This document shows, piece after piece, positions 5,570 to 61,137 of a stretch of DNA of 64,000 nt. The stretch covers positions 496,001-560,000 of the forward strand of contig NZ_AP027056.1 of assembly GCF_027924965.1 (NCBI RefSeq), given 5' to 3'. The DNA is from Limnohabitans sp. TEGF004. Its GTDB lineage: Bacteria; Pseudomonadota; Gammaproteobacteria; Burkholderiales; Burkholderiaceae_C. The position numbers were made by a program, and so were the translations under genes. The notes under the pieces were generated by a model. That model saw only the letters and a program-made list of their open reading frames with translations. It was not told the origin of the DNA and searched no databases. Within the stretch, counting starts at the first letter, position 1; every line of letters begins with the position of its first letter.

Positions 5570-6859
5570 TCACTTCACAAATTTCATGGTTTGTTCGGCA
5601 GGGCCGCCCTTGACCGTTTGGCCTTGGCAGCTGGGGCGGCAGAAGAAGTCTGCGTTGCTCAGGTCTGCCACCGTGCCAATGTCTTTGTCGCCACGGCCAG
5701 AGAGGTTCACCAAGATGGACTGCTCGGGCTTCATGGTCTTGGCCAGTTTCATGGCGTAGGCCACGGCATGGCTTGATTCCAGCGCGGGGATGATGCCCTC
5801 GGTGCGGCACAGGTAGTGGAAGGCTTCCAGCGCTTCTTTGTCGGTGATGCCCACGTACTCGGCGCGGCCGATGTCCTTGAGGAATGCGTGCTCGGGGCCC
5901 ACGCCGGGGTAGTCAAGGCCAGCGCTCACGCTGTGCGTTTCGGTGATTTGGCCGTTCTCGTCTTGCAAGATGTAGGTGCGGTTGCCGTGCAACACGCCGG
6001 GTGCGCCCAGCTGCAGCGAGCACGAGTGACGGTCGGTGTCCATGCCTTCGCCAGCGGCTTCCACGCCAATGAGGCGTGTGTTGGCGTGGTTGATGTAGGG
6101 GTAAAAGATGCCCATGGCATTGCTGCCGCCGCCCACGCAGGCGATGACGGCATCGGGTTGTTCTTCAGCCATCTTGAGGCTCTTGAACATCTCAGGCATT
6201 TGCGTGAGGCATTCTTCGCCAATCACGCTTTGGAAATCGCGCACCATCATGGGGTAGGGGTGTGGGCCCGCCACCGTGCCGATGATGTAGAAAGTGTTGT
6301 CCACGTTGGCCACCCAGTCGCGCATGGCTTCGTTCAGCGCGTCTTTGAGGGTGCGGCTGCCGCTTTCCACGGGCACAACGGTCGCGCCCAAGAGCTTCAT
6401 GCGGTACACGTTAGGGCTTTGACGCTTGACGTCTTCAGCGCCCATGTAGACCACGCATTCCAAACCGTAGCGTGCACAAATGGTGGCGGTGGCCACGCCG
6501 TGCTGGCCTGCGCCAGTTTCGGCGATCACGCGGGGCTTGCCCATGCGCTTGGCCAGCATGGCTTGGCCGATGGTGTTGTTGATCTTGTGTGCGCCGGTGT
6601 GGTTCAAGTCTTCACGCTTCAAGAAGATTTGCGCACCACCCATTTCGCGGCTCATGCGGGCTGCGTGGTAAATGGGCGAAGGGCGTCCTACAAAGTGAGC
6701 AAGTTCGTTTTTGAACTCGGCGATGAACGCGGGGTCGTGTTGGTATTTGGCGTACGCGTCTTTGAGCTCTTCAATCGCGTGGGTCAGCGTTTCGCTGATG
6801 AAGCTGCCGCCGTAAATGCCAAAGTGGCCTTTGGCGTCGGGTTGTTGGTAGTTCGACAT
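5570..6859 (-). CDS. trpB: Tryptophan synthase beta chain
   Basis: A 429-residue PLP enzyme. The PLP lysine is K92 in HTGAHKINN, the phosphate-binding loop GGGSNAMG is present, and the N-terminal YGGSF motif is intact. It joins indole and serine to make tryptophan in the alpha2beta2 complex. It is followed directly by trpA and sits 69 bases downstream of trpF. The C-terminus is about 20 residues longer than E. coli TrpB, ending [12 protein letters not shown]. Confidence 0.97.
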
Positions 6860-6928
6860 AGGTTACCTGCAATAGTTGCCTTGGGGCGTCTGCCTCAAGT
6901 GCTTCAAACAAAAAATAGGGAAGGAGGC

Positions 6929-7621
6929 TTAGAGCGGGTGCTCTGCGTCTGCTGCGCGTACGGCTCTGACGAACTCGTGAATCTTGGCAGCATCTTTGAT
7001 GCCTTTGGCCGATTCCACGCCAGAGCTCACGTCCACTGCCAATGAATGGCCGTGGTTACGCAGCGCGCGAATGCCATCGGTCACGTTGGCAGCGTTGAGT
7101 CCACCAGACAAGACGAGGTGAGCGTTGACGTTTGGAGGAAGCTGTGACCAATTGAATGTTTTGCCGCCGCCACCGTAACCGTCGACATGGGCGTCGAGCA
7201 GCACCGCTTGGGCGTCTGAGTAATCTTGCGCGTATTTTAAGAGGTCGAAAGGTTCTTCGCCCGCAGGGGTTTCTAGCGGGATGCGGGCAGCGCGCATCCA
7301 GCGGCGGCCCAAGGTGCGGGCAATCTTGCGGCAGTGGTCAGGTGTTTCATCGCCATGGAACTGCAGCCATGCACCCGGCACTTGCACACAGGCGTGGGCA
7401 ATGGCTTCAGGGGTTTCATTCACAAACAGCAGCACAGGCGTCACGAAGGCGGGCAGGCGCAAGGCTAGCTCGGCAGCGCGCTCCACCGTCACAGCACGGG
7501 GGCTGGGGGCGTACATCACAAAGCCAATGGCGTCCACTCCAGCGGCCACGGCGGCGTCGACATCTTGCTCACGGGTGAGTCCACAAATTTTGATACGTGT
7601 TCGGTTGATGGTGCGGTTCAT
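6929..7621 (-). CDS. trpF: Phosphoribosylanthranilate isomerase
   Basis: A 230-residue TIM barrel with the conserved N-terminal KICGLT catalytic cysteine and LLDAHVDGYGG / LSGGLNAANV phosphate-binding segments. It performs the Amadori rearrangement in tryptophan synthesis. Its ATG overlaps the truA stop by four bases (ATGA), so it is probably translationally coupled to truA. ATG 7621 is used; a second in-frame start a few codons in would skip the first residues. Confidence 0.95.
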   Translation of the reverse strand: MNRTINRTRIKICGLTREQDVDAAVAAGVDAIGFVMYAPSPRAVTVERAAELALRLPAFVTPVLLFVNETPEAIAHACVQVPGAWLQFHGDETPDHCRKIARTLGRRWMRAARIPLETPAGEEPFDLLKYAQDYSDAQAVLLDAHVDGYGGGGKTFNWSQLPPNVNAHLVLSGGLNAANVTDGIRALRNHGHSLAVDVSSGVESAKGIKDAAKIHEFVRAVRAADAEHPL

Positions 7622-8415
7622 GGCAATCCATCATACGCAGGGGTACGGTCAGGCAAATTCCACTGTGCGTCGTAGCGGGGGCCCAAGAAATACAAGCCAT
7701 CGGGGCTGAAGGTGGGGGCGGCGGCATCGCGGTCGCGGGCAGCCAGCACTTCGGCCATCCACTCGGGCGGTTTGTCGCCACTGCCAATCTTCACAAAGCA
7801 GCCCATGAGGTTGCGAATCATGTGGTGCAAAAACGCGCTGGCTTCAAACTCAAAGCGCCACACGGCTGAGCCGGGTTGTGTGCTTTTGCGGGTGATGTCG
7901 ATGCGCGTCATGGTTTTGACGGGTGTGAGGGCTTGGCAGCTGGAGGCGCGAAACGAGGTGAAGTCGTGTTCGCCCATCAGGTACTGCGCGGCTTTTTGCA
8001 TGGCTTCAAGGTCGAGCGGGCGGTACACCCAGCCCACGCGGCCAGCTTCGACGCTGGGGCGCACGGCGGATTCAAGCACCACATAGGCATAGCGGCGCGC
8101 GATGGCGCTGCCTCGGCAGTGGAATTCACGCGGCATTTCTCGCGCCCATTGCACGGCAATGTCGAGCGGCAAATAGCGGTTGGTGCCGCGCACCCACGAG
8201 TAGGGCGTGCGGTCAAGCTCGGTGTCAAAGTGAATCACTTGCATGAGGCCATGCACGCCGGCATCGGTGCGGCCTGCACACAAGCTAGAGACGGGGGTTT
8301 GGGTGAACTTAGACAGCGCTTTTTCAAGCTTGTCCTGCACCGTTTTGCCCGAGGACTGGCTTTGCCAGCCTTCGTAGGCTTGGCCGTTGTAGCTCAAGCC
8401 CATCGCAATGCGCAT
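7618..8415 (-). CDS. truA: tRNA pseudouridine(38-40) synthase
   Basis: A 265-residue protein with the catalytic aspartate D51 in CAGRTDAGVHG and the family motifs YNGQAYEGWQ and FLHHMIRNLMG. It modifies uridines 38-40 in the anticodon arm. It sits between fimV and trpF, the order usual in Burkholderiales. Confidence 0.96.
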   Translation of the reverse strand: MRIAMGLSYNGQAYEGWQSQSSGKTVQDKLEKALSKFTQTPVSSLCAGRTDAGVHGLMQVIHFDTELDRTPYSWVRGTNRYLPLDIAVQWAREMPREFHCRGSAIARRYAYVVLESAVRPSVEAGRVGWVYRPLDLEAMQKAAQYLMGEHDFTSFRASSCQALTPVKTMTRIDITRKSTQPGSAVWRFEFEASAFLHHMIRNLMGCFVKIGSGDKPPEWMAEVLAARDRDAAAPTFSPDGLYFLGPRYDAQWNLPDRTPAYDGLP

Positions 8416-8420
8416 GCGGC

Positions 8421-10088
8421 TTAGCCTCGCTCAGCCAGCCACTTGAGGGCTTTTTCTTTGTCAGCGCCAGAGGCTTCGTTGGCCACTTCTTCCATCAACG
8501 CACGGCTGGTATGCAGTTGGCCTAAGTTCCACAGCTCGTCGGCCAAGTCGATGCGCACTTGGTAGGGGCCAGCGGGTGCATCGTGTTCGTCCAAATCCAA
8601 GGAGATGTTGGGCATCTCCATGGTCGGGCGAATGGGGGGTGCGTCGTGGGGCGCGTGCGTTTCTTCTTGCAGGTCATCCGCGTCATGGGCGTGGTGCTCA
8701 TGGTCGTGGGGATGTTCATGCGTGTCGTGCATGTGCGTGGCCACATCGTGGATGTAGGCGCGTTCGACGGGCTCCGCATGATCGTGCTCAGGCAGGTCGA
8801 GGTTGAACTTCACGTTCAAGGGCGGCAAGCCATGGATGTCGTCTTCGCGCTTGTTCAAAGCGCGACGGCGCCATAAGCCCACCAACACCAAGATGGCGAT
8901 CAGGCTGCCAGCACCCACGGGGGTAAGTGAGTTTTCGCGCAGCTCGTTGAGCCATTCGCTGTTGGCCTCAGCCGCGCTGGCGGGTACATCGACAGCTAAG
9001 ACGCCAGAGGCTGCCTCGGAGGCTGGTGCTGCTGAGCCAGTTACTGTGGCGGCTGCGATTTTGCCGAGTTCAGCGATGTTGCGGCTGAGCTCTGCCGCGC
9101 GAGTTGCCACGTCTTGGGCTTCGCGTTGCTGTGCAATCTTGTCTTCAGCCGCAGTGTCTTTGCTGCCAGGTTTGGCCAAAGTCAATTTGTCTTGGTTGGC
9201 CTTGGCATTTTTGTTTTGTACTTTGGCGTCGAGTTTGCCTTCGGCATCGCGTGACACTTTGGGCACCACACCGCCTGGGGCGCGTGCGGCTAGCTCGGCA
9301 CGGTAGGCCTCAAAGTCTTTGGCCTGGATTTGAATTTCACGGCGCGCTTCTTCGCGCGACACGGCTTTGGCTTCTTGCTCGGTGGGCAAGGTCAGCAAAG
9401 CGCCTTCTTTCATGCGGTTGACGTTGGATTCAACAAACGCATCGGGGTTGCTGCGCAACAAGGCCACCAGCATTTGTTCAAGCGACACACCTTCAGGCGT
9501 TTTGCCCGCACTCAGTTCGCTGGCGGTATCGCCATGTTTGACCGTGATTTGTCCGTTGGACTGTCCATTTTTGCTATAAACCGAAGGCATCTCAGCTGTT
9601 TTGAGATTGCGTTCGCCAATGCCCGGCATCAAAGGGGCGTTAGGCTTTTTGGCACTGCCATCGTCAATGGACAGACTTACATCGCGCAGCAAACGGCCTG
9701 TGGCCCAACGCAAATCAATCAGCAAATCCAAAAAGTTGCTGTTGATGGCTTGTTTGCTGGTGATTTTTAAATAGGGCCAACCGTGGTCTCGGCGCAACAG
9801 TTGCACCTGAACATCGATGGGTTGGCCATTGACCATCGGTACTTCTACCTTGGCTGCTTTGTAAACCTCAGGGCTGGCAATTTTGGCTTCGAGCTCAATT
9901 TGTTCAGCGATGGTGATTTCGCTGACATCGATCTCTACGCGCAAAGCCTCGCCCTGCTTGCTTTGTACGACAGGTCGGCTCAAAGTGAGTGCCTGCGCAC
10001 CGCCGAGGACCGACAGTGACAAGGCTGCCCACAGCGCTGATCGCCGGAACAAATGGGAAGCAGAGCGGTGAGCTTTTTTCATAGCCAA
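8421..10088 (-). CDS. fimV: FimV-family peptidoglycan-binding inner-membrane protein with His-rich cytoplasmic segment
   Basis: A 555-residue protein. In order: signal peptide (about 1-33, ending AQA), FimV N-terminal domain (LTLSRPVVQSKQGEALRVEI onward), LysM-like segment (about residues 180-240, VKHGDTASELS), an Ala/Lys-rich linker, one transmembrane helix near residues 390-410 followed by WRRRALNKRE, and the conserved FimV C-terminal helical domain (about 505-555). FimV proteins help place polar structures such as type IV pili in Pseudomonas. Just before the C-terminal domain, residues about 433-481 hold 14 histidines mixed with Asp and Glu. Short for the family, which often exceeds 800 residues. 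Five bases separate its stop from truA. Confidence 0.9.
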   Translation of the reverse strand: MAMKKAHRSASHLFRRSALWAALSLSVLGGAQALTLSRPVVQSKQGEALRVEIDVSEITIAEQIELEAKIASPEVYKAAKVEVPMVNGQPIDVQVQLLRRDHGWPYLKITSKQAINSNFLDLLIDLRWATGRLLRDVSLSIDDGSAKKPNAPLMPGIGERNLKTAEMPSVYSKNGQSNGQITVKHGDTASELSAGKTPEGVSLEQMLVALLRSNPDAFVESNVNRMKEGALLTLPTEQEAKAVSREEARREIQIQAKDFEAYRAELAARAPGGVVPKVSRDAEGKLDAKVQNKNAKANQDKLTLAKPGSKDTAAEDKIAQQREAQDVATRAAELSRNIAELGKIAAATVTGSAAPASEAASGVLAVDVPASAAEANSEWLNELRENSLTPVGAGSLIAILVLVGLWRRRALNKREDDIHGLPPLNVKFNLDLPEHDHAEPVERAYIHDVATHMHDTHEHPHDHEHHAHDADDLQEETHAPHDAPPIRPTMEMPNISLDLDEHDAPAGPYQVRIDLADELWNLGQLHTSRALMEEVANEASGADKEKALKWLAERG

Positions 10089-54056: not shown

Positions 54057-55661
54057 TCAGCTCGGCTTTTTATCCAACAGGTTCAGCACCGCCAACGCAG
54101 CTGTTGCATCCCCTGTGGTGTGGGTCAGGCTCTGGCGCAGTGTGTCGGTGCCCGTGGCTTGGGCAATCAAATCCAGCTGCGCGACCAGGAGGTTGAACTG
54201 AGCCGCTGCGAGTTGAGGGTGTGCTTTGGCGTCGAGTATCAAACCATTGGCTTGGGTGAGTTGTTCGGTGGCTTTGGCTTCAAATTCGGCCTTGGCTTCT
54301 GCAGTGAGTCGCTTGACTTCTTCATGCGACAAGTGCAAACGCTCAGCTTCGGCCACGATGAGTTCGCGTTCAGCGCCATCGAGCATGCCATCTTCAAAAG
54401 CCATCATCAAGCGGTGCTTGAAGGCATCGCGGTCAATGCGCAATTGGTCAGTGAAGGCCGATGCCAGCAAGCCTGCTGGGATGGCAAAAATACCAATGCC
54501 CAGCAACGCCAGCACCACGGTAAGTGCGCGGCCCATGGGAGTGATGGGCGAGATGTCGCCATAGCCCACCGAGGCCAGTGTGACCACGGCCCAATAAATG
54601 GATTGGGGAATGTTCTCGAACTTGTCGGGTTGTGCAGGGTGCTCAAACAAGTAACCCAAGCTGGCGGTGAGCACCACCAATAGCATCATCACGAACACCG
54701 AGGCAAAGATGATTTGCCACTCGCGCAGCACCACTTTGTAAAGCGTTTCCATGGCCGAGGTGTAGCGCGTGAGTTTGAGCATGCGCATCAAGCGGAAGAC
54801 CCGCAAAAAACGCAAATCCAAATGCTGGCTGAACAAACTCTCGAGGATGAACGGCAAGATGGTGAACAAGTCGATGATGGCTTGCCCCGTGCGCACATGG
54901 GCCCAATGCGGCATGCGCAGGTGCTTGTATTTCGGGTTTTCTGGCGCTGAGTAAACGCGTGCAATGTATTCGAGGGTGAAGATGGTGAACGCAATCACGT
55001 CAATCACCATGAACTCGGTGGCGAACAAGGCGTGCACAGACGCCACGGTCTCAAACACCACACAGGTGATGGACAAGGCAATCCAAAACACGATGAAGTT
55101 GTCGATGTAGGTGTGTAAGCGACCCGAGTGGCCGGTGGGCTCCAACATGGCAAACACTTTGGCACGCAAGCTGCGTCCCGCATTGAGTTCTTGAAACTCA
55201 TGCCACGCAGGAATGAGTTGGCGCGAGAGTTTGAACATTCGCGCCAGTCGCATGACTCGCAAAACGCGCAACATCTCCACGTCCACATCGACAAAGCGTG
55301 CGAAGTAGAACGGGGCAATGGCGATCAAATCGACCAACGCGTAAAAGCTGAATGCATAACGCAAACGCGGAAAAGACTTGCCCGCAAAGTCGGGGTTGAC
55401 GTGGGCAGTGGCCACACGCAGCAGGTATTCCGCTGTGAAGATGCCCACAGTCACCACATCAAACCAATGAAACCATGCGGTGTGAGCGTTGTAAATCTCG
55501 GGTGTGTTTTCAATCAACACCGCGATGACGCTGGCGACGATGAGAAATCCAATGCTGCGCTCGACGACATGGTGAAAACCGTGTTTGAACTCTGGGTCAA
55601 ACAACCACTTGTAGATCTTGGCAAGCAGCGAAGTGTGGGTGTGTGTCATGTGGGTCGTCAT
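54057..55661 (-). CDS. Dual-voltage-sensor potassium-type channel protein (second copy)
   Basis: A 534-residue protein. VSD1 spans about residues 31-150, with the S4 arginines at 132, 135, 138, 141 (plus K144, R147). Without any S5-S6 in between, VSD2 follows at about 181-300, with S4 charges at 284, 287, 290, 293, K296, R299. The pore has S5 (about 318-340), the filter TLASVGYGD (361-369) and S6 (380-402). The tail (404-534) holds the EDGMLDGAERE module. Tandem VSDs sharing one pore are not a layout I know in bacteria. The start at 55661 lies 12 bases after a hairpin, so it may have its own promoter. The M at 55649 is an alternative start. Confidence 0.88.
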   Translation of the reverse strand: MTTHMTHTHTSLLAKIYKWLFDPEFKHGFHHVVERSIGFLIVASVIAVLIENTPEIYNAHTAWFHWFDVVTVGIFTAEYLLRVATAHVNPDFAGKSFPRLRYAFSFYALVDLIAIAPFYFARFVDVDVEMLRVLRVMRLARMFKLSRQLIPAWHEFQELNAGRSLRAKVFAMLEPTGHSGRLHTYIDNFIVFWIALSITCVVFETVASVHALFATEFMVIDVIAFTIFTLEYIARVYSAPENPKYKHLRMPHWAHVRTGQAIIDLFTILPFILESLFSQHLDLRFLRVFRLMRMLKLTRYTSAMETLYKVVLREWQIIFASVFVMMLLVVLTASLGYLFEHPAQPDKFENIPQSIYWAVVTLASVGYGDISPITPMGRALTVVLALLGIGIFAIPAGLLASAFTDQLRIDRDAFKHRLMMAFEDGMLDGAERELIVAEAERLHLSHEEVKRLTAEAKAEFEAKATEQLTQANGLILDAKAHPQLAAAQFNLLVAQLDLIAQATGTDTLRQSLTHTTGDATAALAVLNLLDKKPS

Positions 55662-55672
55662 GGGTGTGATTT

Positions 55673-55696
55673 AAAAAGGCTCCAGTAGGAGCCTTT
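55673..55696 (-). terminator. Terminator-like hairpin before the 534-residue channel gene
   Basis: AAAGGCTCC / GGAGCCTTT with a four-base loop; on the minus strand it ends in five Ts. It lies between the DUF4337 gene and the last channel gene, so part of the upstream transcript may stop here. Confidence 0.65.
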
Positions 55697-55714
55697 GAGT
55701 GGTGTGTGAGGGGC

Positions 55715-56287
55715 TTAGATCAAAAGCAAAAAGCCGTTGAGCGTTGAAAAAATGCCCAGGATACCTAGGGCGCATGGCACCCAGAACAGCACATGTGCGC
55801 CAGTCAGAATGGCCACCGAGGTCAGCACGATGGCAATTTGCAACAAGGCTTCTGCGTAGTCAAACCATGGGTCTTGGCGCAAAGCGATGTCGCGCTCGTG
55901 TTCATGCGCTTTGGCTTTTTCCATCAACTCTTTTTTGCCGTCGCCAGTCTCTGGCTCGGACTCATAGCGGGCGATGTTCTTTTCGTAGGCTTCGAGCTTT
56001 TTCTCAGCCAAAGCTTTGGCGGCAGACGAGAGCTTGTCGTTGGCAATTTGGATGCGCAATTCGTCAGCCGCAATTTTGTAGTCGGTCTGGCGGATGTTTT
56101 TGGCTTGGTAAAACGAATACGCGTTGGCTGCCAAGATGTTGTTGCTCATGCTTTCTTTGGCAGCGTTGTTACCACCTAAGCTGGCAATGGCCAAACACAT
56201 GGCCAAGATGGACACCAACATGGCACAACGGGTGCGAAAGGGGTCGTTGCCGTGCTCTGGTAATTCGGTTTCTGGCACTTCACTCAT
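55715..56287 (-). CDS. DUF4337-type membrane protein
   Basis: A 190-residue protein with one N-terminal helix (about 20-40, MLVSILAMCLAIASLGG), a long charged helical middle (about 65-130) and two C-terminal membrane helices. The segment with ESMSNNILAANAYSFYQAK is the recalled DUF4337 signature. It may be an accessory subunit of the channel cluster, because it lies between channel genes and 12 bases from a small membrane gene. Function unknown. Confidence 0.65.
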   Translation of the reverse strand: MSEVPETELPEHGNDPFRTRCAMLVSILAMCLAIASLGGNNAAKESMSNNILAANAYSFYQAKNIRQTDYKIAADELRIQIANDKLSSAAKALAEKKLEAYEKNIARYESEPETGDGKKELMEKAKAHEHERDIALRQDPWFDYAEALLQIAIVLTSVAILTGAHVLFWVPCALGILGIFSTLNGFLLLI

Positions 56288-56299
56288 GGTTTTTCCTTG

Positions 56300-56509
56300 T
56301 TATTCTTTGTGGTCGTCGGAATGCTTGTTTTTGCGTTTGGCAAAAATTTTATACAAAGCAAACACGGCCAACACCACGGCCACCACACACACCACCAATT
56401 CAGCGTTCGTTAATTTGTGGACAAACTGATCGACGTAGTCGTAGGTCGACAGCGGCGTGTAGACGTCGGGGTTCTCTTGTTTGTACTTTTGGTAGGCGCC
56501 GTTGTCCAT
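56300..56509 (-). CDS. Small single-pass membrane protein (69 residues)
   Basis: One transmembrane helix at about 38-56 (ELVVCVVAVVLAVFALYKIF), followed by a Lys-rich tail (AKRKNKHSDDHKE), so the tail is likely cytoplasmic. It lies 18 bases after the 322-residue channel gene and 12 bases before the DUF4337 gene. No family recognised; a small channel accessory subunit is a reasonable guess. Confidence 0.6.
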   Translation of the reverse strand: MDNGAYQKYKQENPDVYTPLSTYDYVDQFVHKLTNAELVVCVVAVVLAVFALYKIFAKRKNKHSDDHKE

Positions 56510-56527
56510 GATGACCTTTGTTGGGAG

Positions 56528-57496
56528 TTACTTGGATTGCTTGTTGGCTTCTGAGATGTGTTTTTCTTCTTGCATCTGGTGTTTGATGGCTTCAACTTGC
56601 TCGTCAGACATCCCCAGCTTAGCTTGCATGATTTTAAGTTGAGCTTGCTCCTCTTCGGTGACAACACCATCGGACAGTACGGAACGAACTTCCATTTCAT
56701 ACAGGGCTTGACGGCGCTCCACCTGCGCGGTGTACGCCGTGGCCACCACACCGGTCAAGATGGCAGCCAAGGCGATGGACAAGATTTGGGTGAGGATGAC
56801 CAACACCGTACCCACAAATGTCACGGGGTCTACGTTGCCCCAACCCGCAATGATGGTGATGACAAACCAGTGCATGGCCGCTGGAATGGATGGGAAGACA
56901 TCAGGTTGCTCATGGCCTTCGATGATGTAGATCAGTGAAGAGAAAAGCAAGCAACTGATGAACAACAAGAACACGGCAGACGAAAAAGAGTCTCGCTCCG
57001 CCTTGACCGCAGCCACCATGTCTTCAAACGCGCTGTTGTAGCGAGAGAGCTTGAAAATTCGCATCAAGCGGAACATGCGCAGCACGCGCAAGTCGGCGCC
57101 TGGGAAAAGCAATTGCAAATAAAACGGCACGGTGCTGACAAAGTCGATGATGCCGTAGAAGCTGAACACATATTCTTTGCGGCCTTGCCATGCGGTGCCG
57201 CCACTGTGGAGGTACTTTTCGCTGTACGACCACACGCGCAAGATGAATTCGACAGAGAACACGGCCACGCTGAACACGTCAAAGGCATGGAACTCGTACA
57301 TGAAGGCTTCATGGATCTCCGGCACGGATTCCAAGATGATGCCCACCACGTTGGCGACCACCAAGAGCGCGATGAAGATTTCGACGAAATGGCTGTACTT
57401 GTCGGGGACTTCACCTTCCATGATTTCGAAGGTGCGGCGCTTGATGCGCTGGTAAGTCGTGAGGTTAGCGGCTGCTGTGTTCATGGTGGCGCTCAT
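56528..57496 (-). CDS. Six-helix voltage-gated channel with GWGN filter
   Basis: A 322-residue protein with S1 to S6. S4 charges are R137, R140, R143, R146, K149 and R152. The filter reads TIIAGWGN (214-221): one residue shorter than TLASVGYGD, with Tyr replaced by Trp and Asp by Asn. Such a loop is not expected to hold a canonical potassium filter, so its selectivity is open. The C-terminal helical module SDGVVTEEE follows (275-283). The gene overlaps the upstream channel gene by four bases. M5 (57484) is an alternative start. Confidence 0.82.
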   Translation of the reverse strand: MSATMNTAAANLTTYQRIKRRTFEIMEGEVPDKYSHFVEIFIALLVVANVVGIILESVPEIHEAFMYEFHAFDVFSVAVFSVEFILRVWSYSEKYLHSGGTAWQGRKEYVFSFYGIIDFVSTVPFYLQLLFPGADLRVLRMFRLMRIFKLSRYNSAFEDMVAAVKAERDSFSSAVFLLFISCLLFSSLIYIIEGHEQPDVFPSIPAAMHWFVITIIAGWGNVDPVTFVGTVLVILTQILSIALAAILTGVVATAYTAQVERRQALYEMEVRSVLSDGVVTEEEQAQLKIMQAKLGMSDEQVEAIKHQMQEEKHISEANKQSK

Positions 57497-58404
57497 TCAT
57501 TCGATGAGGATTTATTTTTCGCGCGCAGCATCATGGCTTCGACCTGTTCATCGCTGAGGCGGTAGTGCGCTTGCAAGCGCTGCAGTGTTTGTTGTTCTTC
57601 TTCAGACATGTTGCCGTCTTTGAAGACTTCGCGCAGTTGCGCTTCAAACGCCGCCTTTTTACGCGCCACTTGGTTGGAGAAGGCCGAGGCCACGATACCG
57701 GTCATGATGGCGGCCATACACACCCCCAAGAAGCCGGTGATGAGCGCAATGGCTTCGCCGGCTTTGGTGGTGGGTTCGACGTTGCCGTAGCCAGATGTGA
57801 TGGTGACGATCGCCCAATAGATGGAATGTGGAATCGTGCCAAAGAACTCTGGCTGGTGATGGCCTTCTGCGAAGTGCATCAACGAAGCTGACACGATGGT
57901 GGCAATGGTCAACAAAAACACCGCAGAACCAAACGCCTGACGTTCAGAATGGATGGCATGAAATAAGTCTTGCAGTGCGGTGTTGTATTTGGAGAGTTTC
58001 AAGATTCGCAGTAAGCGCAAGACGCGCAAGATACGCAAATCCAGTCCTGGCAAGAAGATGTGCATGTAGTAGGGCATGGTGGCAAAAAAGTCCACCAATC
58101 CGAACGGGCTGAGCATGTATTCGAAGCGACCTTTCCATGAGCCGCCATGCGCCTTGTCATATTTCGCACCCAAGGACCACACGCGTGAAATGTATTCACC
58201 CGTGAAGAACATGACGCTCCAGAACTCCAACTCGTGGAAGAAGTCTTTGAATTCAGCGTGAATTTCTGGGACGGAATCAAGAATCACTGCAGAACAGTTG
58301 ACCAGTACCACCAGGGTGATGGCCCATTCGACGTAACGGCTGGCAGCGTGCTTGGGCGAGCCGTCCAATATTTCCATCAGTGTGTGTTTGGGGCCTGTTG
58401 TCAT
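57493..58404 (-). CDS. Six-helix voltage-gated channel with GYGN filter
   Basis: A 303-residue protein with one VSD; S4 charges R124, R127, R130, R133, K136 and K139. The filter is TITSGYGN (201-208): GYG is retained, but the Val before it is missing relative to the dual-VSD paralogues and Asp is Asn. The tail FKDGNMSEEEQ (261-271) matches the module of the other channels. It overlaps the next channel gene by four bases, so the two are probably made together and may co-assemble. Confidence 0.85.
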   Translation of the reverse strand: MTTGPKHTLMEILDGSPKHAASRYVEWAITLVVLVNCSAVILDSVPEIHAEFKDFFHELEFWSVMFFTGEYISRVWSLGAKYDKAHGGSWKGRFEYMLSPFGLVDFFATMPYYMHIFLPGLDLRILRVLRLLRILKLSKYNTALQDLFHAIHSERQAFGSAVFLLTIATIVSASLMHFAEGHHQPEFFGTIPHSIYWAIVTITSGYGNVEPTTKAGEAIALITGFLGVCMAAIMTGIVASAFSNQVARKKAAFEAQLREVFKDGNMSEEEQQTLQRLQAHYRLSDEQVEAMMLRAKNKSSSNE

Positions 58405-58446
58405 GGCGAAGGTCTAACGATATTGAATTTATAGGGCTTAATTGAT

Positions 58447-58477
58447 AAGCGGTCACACAGCATGTGTGTGACCGCTT
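58447..58477. repeat. Hairpin between two channel genes
   Basis: AAGCGGTCACAC (58447-58458) and GTGTGACCGCTT (58466-58477) form a twelve-base perfect stem. A T-run follows on the plus strand only, so it could stop antisense transcription or act as a processing site on the minus-strand transcript. Confidence 0.65.
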
Positions 58478-58512
58478 TTTTTAAGACTTGAGTCATCAAG
58501 CCAAGCGGCGTT

Positions 58513-60156
58513 TTAAGCCTTGCCTTGAATTTTTTGCCACAAGGCAAATTCGTTAGCAGACAGGCGATCGCCTTGTTGTGCAGCTTGGTCAAACTGTGCG
58601 GCATCCACTTGCACGCCGAGTTGTCGGATTTGGCCCAACAACACTTTGTAATGCTCCACAGCCAAGGCTGGGTTTTCAGCAATTTTGTGGATCGGCAGCG
58701 GGTTGCGCTCCTCGAGCTCGTGCTCTTTGATCACCACTTCAATCAACGCATTCACTTCTTCCACCGTCAAGTGCAAGCGCTTGGCTTCTGCACGGATGAT
58801 GGCAGCCTCGGCTTCAGTGATGTGGCCGTCTTTCAGAATGCTGAACAGTTTGGCTTTCAACTGGTCGCGTTCTTTCACCAACTCGTCGCTGAAAGCTGAG
58901 GCCAGCAAAGCAGCGGGGATGGCGAAGATACCAATGCCCATCAGCGCCAAGATGCTGGTCATCGCGCGGCCCATCGGTGTGACAGGTGAAATGTCGCCAT
59001 AGCCCACAGAGGCCAAGGTGATGACCGCCCAATAAATGGAGGTGGGGATGTTTTCAAACTTCTCTGGCTGCGCGTCGTACTCAAACAAATAGCCCAAGCT
59101 GGCGGTCAAGACCAACAGCAACATCATGATGAAGGTGGCCGCGCCCATGACAGGCCACTCACGCACCACCACTTTGACCAACACCGCAGTGGCATCGCTG
59201 CCGCGTGTGAGTTTGAGCAGTCGCGCCAAACGGAAGACTCGCAAGAAGCGCAAATCAAGGAGGTGATGCAAGAACACTTCTAAGAAGAAGGGCAAGATGG
59301 CCAAGAAGTCGATGAGTGTCGATGGCGATTTGGCTTGCTTGAAGCGGCCGATGATCGAACCTTTGTAGCCAGGCTCTTCCACACAAGCGTACATGCGCAT
59401 GCAGTACTCCACGGTAAAGATGGCCACAGCCACGGCGTCCAAGATGACGAATTGCAAATGCAAGACGTAGTTGATGCCTTTGACCGATTCCAAGATCACG
59501 GCCAGCACAGACAAGATCACCCACACACCAATGAACACCTCAAAGATGTGTTGCATGGTGCCGCCGAATTCGCTTGGGAACACCAAGGCGTGCACTTTCT
59601 GACGAAAGGTGCGCCCTTTGTTGAGCTCTTTGAATTCAGCAATGGCAGGAATCAAGACGCGGAACAACTTCATGATTCGCAAGAGTCGCAGGAATCGCAA
59701 CACGCGCAAGTCGATGGGAATGAAGGCTTGCAAGTAGAACGGTGCCACAGCCAAGAAGTCGATGATCGCAAAGGGGCTGGTCACAAAGCCCAAGCGTGCG
59801 TTCTTGCGGTTTTTGAACTCTTCGTCTTCAGGTGCGAGGTAAAAGCGCAGGGCGTATTCAATGGTGAACACGGCCACTGAGAAGATGTCAAAGCACTCAA
59901 ACCAGACGCGGTACGGTTCGTACACCGCAGGAACGTGCTCGAACATCAAGGTGAACAAGTTGATGATGATCAGATAGCTGACCCATTTGTCCAATTCTTT
60001 TTGAAAGTTACCGGGGATGTTTGGATCGAGCAACCATGCGTAAAGCCACTTGCGCATGGGCAAGTTGCGGTCGATGTTGGCTTCTACGTCTTGGCCCAGA
60101 ATGGCTTTGACGTCGAGGTCTTCGAGGAATTTGTCGTGTTTGGATGTTGTATTCAT
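58513..60156 (-). CDS. Dual-voltage-sensor potassium-type channel protein (first copy)
   Basis: A 547-residue protein. VSD1: S1 about 58-76, S4 151-166 with R151, R154, R157, R160, K163, R166. VSD2: S1 about 205-222, S4 303-318 with R303, R306, R309, R312, K315, R318. The link between them (about 169-200) contains no pore helices. One pore follows: S5 about 336-357, filter TLASVGYGD (380-388), S6 about 399-421. The C-terminal domain has LKDGHITEAEA (441-451). The GYGD filter predicts potassium selectivity. It is the longest gene of the cluster and lies eight bases after the 191-residue gene. Confidence 0.9.
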   Translation of the reverse strand: MNTTSKHDKFLEDLDVKAILGQDVEANIDRNLPMRKWLYAWLLDPNIPGNFQKELDKWVSYLIIINLFTLMFEHVPAVYEPYRVWFECFDIFSVAVFTIEYALRFYLAPEDEEFKNRKNARLGFVTSPFAIIDFLAVAPFYLQAFIPIDLRVLRFLRLLRIMKLFRVLIPAIAEFKELNKGRTFRQKVHALVFPSEFGGTMQHIFEVFIGVWVILSVLAVILESVKGINYVLHLQFVILDAVAVAIFTVEYCMRMYACVEEPGYKGSIIGRFKQAKSPSTLIDFLAILPFFLEVFLHHLLDLRFLRVFRLARLLKLTRGSDATAVLVKVVVREWPVMGAATFIMMLLLVLTASLGYLFEYDAQPEKFENIPTSIYWAVITLASVGYGDISPVTPMGRAMTSILALMGIGIFAIPAALLASAFSDELVKERDQLKAKLFSILKDGHITEAEAAIIRAEAKRLHLTVEEVNALIEVVIKEHELEERNPLPIHKIAENPALAVEHYKVLLGQIRQLGVQVDAAQFDQAAQQGDRLSANEFALWQKIQGKA

Positions 60157-60164
60157 GTCAGACC

Positions 60165-60740
60165 TCAGAATTCGAACTCAGCAACTTTGATAGCCGCGCC
60201 ACCTTTGTCGCATACAGAAAGTCGCAATTGCATCTTGTAGTCAATGCTGTCGGTCTCAAGCAGCTGCGACGCCACAAAGGGAGTGGCTGAGCCGGGAGGG
60301 GTAGGCATCAAGTCTTCCAACAGAACGGCACCCATCAAGGTGCGATCTTTGGGGTCACAGGCCGCCACGAAATGGGGGGGCTTGTTGAAAAATGTGTTGA
60401 CTTGGTCTTTCAGCTCGGTCGTCGCCATGATGTGAGCCAAGCAAGCGCCCCAAGTGCCGGGGGTGTCGGCTTTGGCATCGGCTGTAGGTTTGACACCACC
60501 TTTGCACGCAGGATGCGGCGTGTTGGCCTCAAAACGTGTGGTGCCAGTTTCGGTTAACCATGCCACCCAAGCTTCACCGTTGCTTTTGGCTTGTTCGGTT
60601 TTGAGTGCTTCTTGGTAGTTGACAACGCCCAGCCAAGTGACGCCCGCCACAATCAAGACCAAAAAGGCCAGAAAAAGCTTGTCTGTTGAGTTGGGGCCGA
60701 GATGCACGTGCTCGGTGGTGTGTTCACTGGAAGATGCCAT
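60165..60740 (-). CDS. Single-pass membrane protein with cysteine-containing periplasmic domain
   Basis: A 191-residue protein with one transmembrane helix (about 22-42, LFLAFLVLIVAGVTWLGVV) and an outside domain with four cysteines (in PACKGG, GACLAH, AACDPK, SVCDKG) that could form two disulfides. First gene of the channel cluster, and closely followed by a channel gene. No family recognised. A periplasmic sensor or assembly subunit for the channels is plausible. Confidence 0.6.
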   Translation of the reverse strand: MASSSEHTTEHVHLGPNSTDKLFLAFLVLIVAGVTWLGVVNYQEALKTEQAKSNGEAWVAWLTETGTTRFEANTPHPACKGGVKPTADAKADTPGTWGACLAHIMATTELKDQVNTFFNKPPHFVAACDPKDRTLMGAVLLEDLMPTPPGSATPFVASQLLETDSIDYKMQLRLSVCDKGGAAIKVAEFEF

Positions 60741-61057: not shown

Positions 61058-61137
61058 TCATTAGAATGGGAGTGGGTGTTCATTCAATGTTGAGTCAACA
61101 GGTTTAGCGTCGGTCGGGCCGCCACGCGAGAAAACCT

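Follow-up and report, generated by a model that had tools for sequence, protein, structure and literature searches.

Bacterial voltage-gated channels are usually regarded as single homotetrameric genes. What four of them are doing in one cluster is the question raised by a window of 64,000 nt from Limnohabitans sp. TEGF004, part of a 2.62-Mb contig in a genome of 2.77 Mb. A previous sequence-only reading had described seven minus-strand genes separated by gaps of -4 to 108 bases, four of them coding for voltage-gated channels, and had proposed that their products form a hetero-oligomeric membrane complex. The genes are numbered here g1 to g7 along the minus strand, from position 60740 to 54057. 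All of the open reading frames (ORFs) are present, with gaps from g1 to g7 of 8, 108, -4, 18, 12 and 53 bases. The conserved unit consists of four genes, g1 to g4, rather than seven, and is split into two modules of two genes each. The genes g3 and g4 are shown to be paired paralogues with a common loss of one residue between pore helix and selectivity filter, the charges of the S4 helix being kept.

The channels encoded by g2, g3, g4 and g7 belong to the voltage-gated superfamily. Their Pfam Ion_trans (PF00520) scores of 160.9, 103.2, 85.9 and 140 bits, respectively, lie far above the cut-off of 25 bits and bear out the count of four. A genome-wide Ion_trans search at E <= 0.001 returned six matches, confined to these four ORFs. 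By sequence, Kv and KCNQ channels are the best solved relatives of g2 and g3, and g2 matched KCNQ/Kv chains in the PDB. The cNMP_binding domain of the CNG/HCN type gave no Pfam match at E <= 1 in any window channel. The window channels are also distinct from the two-transmembrane Kir architecture of NirBac and KirBac proteins, being Ion_trans proteins with an S4 and having no Kir family among their Pfam matches.

The filter separates g3 and g4 from g2 and g7. Two standard filters (g2 and g7) and two shortened ones (g3 and g4), as first reported, are read in the sequences and recur in relatives. The compared segments are SIYWAVITLASVGYGDISP in g2, SIYWAIVTITS-GYGNVEP in g3 and AMHWFVITIIA-GWGNVDP in g4, with the core filters SVGYGD in g2 and g7, TSGYGN in g3 and IAGWGN in g4. 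The pore-helix tryptophan and the first filter glycine are separated by 8 residues in g2 (spacing 8) and by 7 in g3 and g4 (spacing 7). The main comparison set comprised 80 loci with g3/g4 homologues (L and G numbers are locus and genome labels). Spacing 7 was found there in 75 of 79 g3 and 80 of 81 g4 ORFs, i.e. 155/160, and no g3 or g4 ORF among the 160 had spacing 8. The five remaining ORFs are three fragments in L119 and two full g3 genes with TSGNGN; in the latter (L109:2349-3428 and L110:456-1361) the filter tyrosine is replaced by asparagine and the filter is still short. Spacing 8 was found in all 75 fetched loci of standard-filter relatives, a set from which L171-L173, L178 and L179 (window genome and G549/G605) had been excluded in advance. 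The K+ filter signature (GYGD type with spacing 8), absent from g3 and g4, is present in 66 of 68 ORFs labelled g2 and in 11 of 14 plus-strand ORFs labelled g7, and the window g2 and g7 agree by eye. The misses are two short g2 fragments and three weak matches labelled g7 (scores 50, 26 and 23). The sensor has been retained alongside the short filter: the S4 charge motif R..R..R..R..K occurs in 73/74 g3 and 80/80 g4 proteins.

The pairing of g3 with g4 is nearly invariant. Of the 73 loci whose sequence extends more than 800 bases ahead of g4, 72 have g3 immediately before it, and g1 and g2 stand directly before this pair in 55 of the 60 loci with more than 3.7 kb before g4. Median gaps across loci are 8 bases for g1-g2, 89.5 for g2-g3 and -4 for g3-g4. 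The search set for the genus comprised 84 genomes, many of them incomplete, of which 56 gave a g4 match at E <= 1.5e-98, G270 adding a partial and weaker one (hand count). The order and composition of the cluster, which the sequence-only reading had proposed to look up elsewhere, recur only in part: g1-g2-g3-g4 is found in the same order in other genomes, and the seven-gene unit is not conserved. That reading had also allowed that the cluster would be accidental if its homologues never occurred together elsewhere; g1 to g4 do recur together. Median dN/dS (nonsynonymous to synonymous substitution rates, 6-9 close relatives each) is 0.097 for g1, 0.075 for g2, 0.042 for g3, 0.07 for g4, 0.055 for g6 and 0.10 for g7, with dS near 1 in these comparisons; these six genes are under purifying selection. 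The cluster is not a product of chance: its gene order and filters are seen again in dozens of genomes, and these six genes are under such selection.

The two modules also occur apart. Without short-filter genes, g1-g2 is found in G615 and G640 (family f32), and g3-g4 is found without g1-g2 nearby in G549 and G605 (family f18). In the comparison set, the five loci lacking g1-g2 directly ahead are L092, L099 and L111, where another module is present, L150, where the genes are spread out, and L151. In this second context the genes ahead of g3-g4 code for a P-II protein, another P-II-like protein and a protein of about 250 residues (the P-II/X252 set). It was found in L092, L099, L111 and L100 of the 80 loci and in L208 and L209 of f18, i.e. 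in six loci from two families. A DUF1538 protein lies ahead of the P-II set in five of the six (the L100 contig starts past that point) and a CLC chloride channel gene follows g4. Pfam assignments in this context were made for L208 and L092, the other loci being assigned by match to the L092 proteins. The two partner sets are exclusive: 65 of the 80 loci carry g2 with g3, four carry the P-II set, none carries both, ten are truncated by the end of a contig and L151 carries neither set. The strongest evidence that g3 and g4 are one functional unit is that the same pair keeps two partner sets in two families. Two further kinds of neighbour were observed after g4. A protein of about 380 aa follows the CLC gene at L092:11255-12406 and L099:11205-12413, and the Ion_trans match of the L092 protein is limited to the sensor part of the model. 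An ORF with a cNMP-binding domain starts at the end of g4 in L121:9771-11330 (by Pfam) and in 13 other loci (by matches).

The relationships of the short-filter proteins were examined in a midpoint-rooted maximum-likelihood tree of 58 chosen sequences, in which very long branches on some standard-filter rows make the placement of these rows unsure. All 30 short-filter proteins fall on the same side of a branch (support 100/99) and are split into a g3 and a g4 group, with two f18 genomes, from another family of the same order, present in both groups. The nearest row is L211, which has a full filter (97/95); L210 and L219-L223, also with full filters, join the short-filter group at weaker support (88/77). 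The simplest history suggested by this topology would be a deletion, then a duplication, then the split of the lineages.

The channels g2 and g7 carry a second voltage-sensor domain (VSD) ahead of the six-transmembrane (6-TM) channel, a point absent from the sequence-only reading. Each has two Ion_trans matches and a single Ion_trans_2 pore match, that is, a sensor followed by a full six-helix channel, and two S4 ladders (R..R..R..R..K) are present in 58 of 62 g2 orthologues. This VSD-VSD-pore arrangement was rarely matched over its full length from the first sensor: among 299 genomes of the phylum at E <= 1e-60 only the two window proteins were recovered, and among 300 genomes of the order at E <= 1e-90 only G491 besides these two. 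Further VSD-VSD-pore proteins were seen in G615, G640 and, within the genus, G227. The partner gene g1 stands directly before a g2-type channel in 55/60 loci, and does so in two genomes from a different family as well. It codes for a 51-residue N-terminal helix (one transmembrane segment) followed by a beta domain with four invariant cysteines, which is probably periplasmic. No Foldseek match to g1 in the PDB was found at E <= 0.001, and the best alignment to PDB sequences had an E value of 0.33. A pilin-like fold (type IV, with a long N-terminal helix on a beta sheet) was considered in a weak second look and was not adopted. Like g1, g5 matched no Pfam family above the curated cut-off.

Table 1. 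Features of the channel cluster, in window coordinates
Feature	Position	Strand	Description
g1	60165-60740	-	191 aa
g2	58513-60156	-	547 aa, VSD-VSD-pore K+ channel, filter TLASVGYGD
Hairpin in g2-g3 gap	58447-58477	-	13-bp stem; terminator-like or processing element
g3	57493-58404	-	303 aa, voltage-gated 6-TM channel; filter TITSGYGN, shortened by one residue
g4	56528-57496	-	322 aa, voltage-gated 6-TM channel; filter TIIAGWGN, shortened by one residue; 4-bp overlap with g3
g5	56300-56509	-	69 aa, probably one transmembrane segment
g6	55715-56287	-	190 aa, DUF4337 membrane protein (Pfam E 5e-46)
g7	54057-55661	-	534 aa, second VSD-VSD-pore K+ channel, filter TLASVGYGD

The boundary between the two modules is often marked by a hairpin. 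In the window and 62 other loci, 27 of 63 g2-g3 gaps contain a stem of at least 8 bp, where shuffled sequences would give 1.8, and 20 of the 63 contain one with a T-rich tail, where 0.9 would be expected. The hairpin covaries among close relatives: in 12 close sequences, trimmed by eye to the region of the stem, 95.1% of cells are paired and 5 of 12 pairs show changes on both sides. A search for sigma-70-like promoter sites was uninformative (one found, 4.3 expected by chance).

The genes downstream of g4 are add-ons. Across the 80 loci, g5, g6 and g7 are restricted to close relatives, save for g7-like channels placed elsewhere. Matches to g5 were found in 12/80 loci and to g6 in 11/80, all with a g4 at least 84% identical to that of the window. 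A g7 lies downstream on the same strand in eight loci (L072, L075, L076, L077, L079, L080, L081 and L130). The adjacency of g6 and g7 seen in the window is repeated only in L075; in the remaining seven a Kv gene on the opposite strand intervenes, and in six of these g7 is also immediately preceded by a gene whose product has a TLESW filter. This filter is present in L072, L074, L076, L077, L079, L080 and L130, and the L076 protein matched solved chains titled Ion transport protein or NavAb at E 3e-70. The stop of the sodium channel gene overlaps the start of g7 by 4 bases in all six loci measured (e.g. L072:9579-12019 and L076:12121-14609), and the bacterial voltage-gated sodium channel (BacNav) and g7 of these relatives are probably transcribed as one operon. 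At L092:14733-17841 (minus strand), a g7-like VSD-VSD-pore gene lies between two genes for sodium/calcium-type channels with TGDGWS filters, the three overlapping ORFs being on one strand. Within the genus, Ion_trans matches per genome reach 16 in G246, 14 in G251 and 11 in G228, versus 6 in the window genome.

The explanation favoured here, held at little better than even confidence, is that the cluster is a modular island in which g3 and g4 would form an obligate heteromeric channel of altered selectivity beside separate K+ channels. The two proteins would co-assemble, probably with two copies of each, and the resulting voltage-gated cation channel, given its altered filter, is probably not strictly K+-selective. 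The channel g2, with g1 as a single-pass partner, and g7 would be separate voltage-gated K+ channels with a tandem sensor in each subunit. That g2 forms its own channel is suggested because the shorter g3/g4 loop would presumably fit badly with full-length g2 loops in a tetramer. The membrane potential would be shifted when the g3/g4 channel opens and brought back by the double-sensor K+ channels. In relatives this set would be extended by a sodium channel of the NavAb type, coupled to g7, or by a CLC anion channel next to g3-g4, the whole being a toolkit for membrane-potential switching with exchangeable parts. A single complex of four channels is not favoured, because the modules occur apart, often with a terminator-like hairpin between them; of the hetero-oligomeric complex first proposed, the part retained is a heteromer of g3 and g4.

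Several observations weigh against the modular island. That g1-g2 adjoins g3-g4 in most loci would be expected of a four-protein complex as well. The sole exception to g3-g4 adjacency, L150, has the two genes 2.3 kb apart with an opposite-strand gene between them, and L151 keeps g3-g4 without either partner module. No 8-bp stem was found in 36 of the 63 g2-g3 gaps, and on the coding strand the T-tail of the window hairpin is weak, so that terminator, attenuator and processing site are not distinguishable there. In L210 (G491, from another family), at 6473-9509 on the plus strand, a sister of g3/g4 with a standard filter is followed after 475 bases by a g2-type VSD-VSD-pore gene; therefore, the link of the two channel types may predate the short filter. 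Transfer between families would fit the tree of short-filter proteins too and could mimic old conservation. The structure model of g3 is poor (predicted local distance difference test score 63.8) and too low to use. None of the four window channels has the TLESW filter and the genome-wide Ion_trans search of the window genome found no sodium channel; a sodium-driven action potential is therefore not applicable to this genome.

Among the rival explanations, the first makes g3 and g4 modulatory, non-conducting subunits that would join g2 (and g7) in mixed tetramers, as vertebrate KvS subunits do with Kv2. Heteromers of KvS and Kv2 exist (PMC12113274), and the contiguity of g1-g2-g3-g4 in 55 of 60 loci, the similarity by eye of the C-terminal tails of g2, g3, g4 and g7 and the standard-filter sister beside a g2-type gene in G491 would all suit it. 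It is nevertheless considered rather unlikely, since g3-g4 is kept without g2 in six loci from two families, g2 is kept without g3-g4 and hairpins part the two modules in many loci; unequal loop lengths would moreover be expected to break the fourfold packing. The second rival, that four independent homotetrameric channels are mere neighbours in one region with no common function, draws on the way g5 to g7 and other channels come and go between relatives. With g3 and g4 adjacent in 72 of the 73 loci, overlapping by a median of 4 bases and staying paired across two families and two partner contexts, it is improbable.

A role in urea or ammonium metabolism, in which the short filter would pass NH4+ freed by urease, was suggested by the neighbourhood of g4: a same-strand ureD lies within 2.9 kb after it in 34 of the 68 loci with at least 2 kb downstream (UreD identified by Pfam, two weak matches in L077 and L079 being dropped), and P-II-like genes adjoin g3-g4 in the second context. 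Against this, ureD is present in 44 of the 57 genus genomes with short-filter genes and in 22 of the 27 without (hand count), and it lies about 456 kb from the cluster in the window genome. Urease being as common without the short-filter genes as with them, and unlinked to them in the window genome, this function was set aside as very unlikely. An origin on plasmids or phages was also rejected, g3 homologues there being all below 60% identity (best 8 of 77 plasmid records; 6 phage records). Upstream of g1 and divergent from it, an nhaA-I RNA (Rfam RF03057, 44.7 bits against a threshold of 37), which we take to be a riboswitch of the lithium type, lies at window positions 61074-61126 on the plus strand, just before a Na+/H+ antiporter gene (PF07399, 61138-62406). 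An association of the cluster with this antiporter was discarded, as among the 80 loci it was matched in L092 only.

The modular island of an obligate g3/g4 heteromer and separate K+ channels can be set against systems already described. CNGA and CNGB form heteromeric eukaryotic channels. As in the KvS/Kv2 and CNGA/CNGB pairs, paralogous subunits would cooperate in g3/g4; in contrast to those pairs, g3 and g4 are bacterial, are encoded by neighbouring genes and both have shortened filters. With Kv/KCNQ-type K+ channels the window channels share an S1-S4 sensor with its arginine ladder and an S5-P-S6 pore, to which g2 and g7 add a second sensor, whereas g3 and g4 have one residue fewer before GxG and asparagine for aspartate after it. 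The sequence neighbours of the short-filter group are uncharacterised 6-TM Kv-like proteins of the order (L211 and, less surely, L210 and L219-L223). They have a full TTVGYGD-type filter and no second such gene was seen beside them, L210 adjoining a g2-type gene. The search of the window genome gave no BacNav channel of the NavAb/NavMs type, whose gene overlaps g7 in relatives. Among bacterial relatives of K+ channels whose filter has been remodelled, the nearest precedent found is NirBac, a group of prokaryotic proteins from a K+ channel family with altered, non-selective pore loops (PMC4607889). NirBac proteins have the Kir architecture without voltage sensors, and their filters are described as unrelated to any known, in contrast to the GxG core kept in g3 and g4 (PMC4607889). 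The tandem Kv channels of dinoflagellates and oomycetes repeat channel domains in one chain; there the whole 6TM unit is repeated, whereas g2 and g7 repeat the sensor alone (PMC7576140). In a literature search of open-licence papers, none of the matches listed appeared to treat this cluster.

A role of the cluster in membrane-potential control is plausible. The idea that freshwater Burkholderiales possess an excitability toolkit, in which an obligately heteromeric g3+g4 channel, the double-sensor g2 and g7 channels and, in relatives, a NavAb-type channel would fire and reset potential transients in single cells, is possible and at present doubtful. More generally, bacteria may build mixed-subunit voltage-gated channels. 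The conserved short-filter pair would be a natural experiment on which parts of the K+ filter are dispensable, and two voltage sensors per subunit would offer a new test of electromechanical coupling. The overlap of sodium and K+ channel genes in relatives would make bacterial electrical excitability directly testable in Limnohabitans, where the nearest loci include those of strains Jir61 and JirII-31, whose records are not labelled as metagenome-assembled genomes and which are probably cultured.

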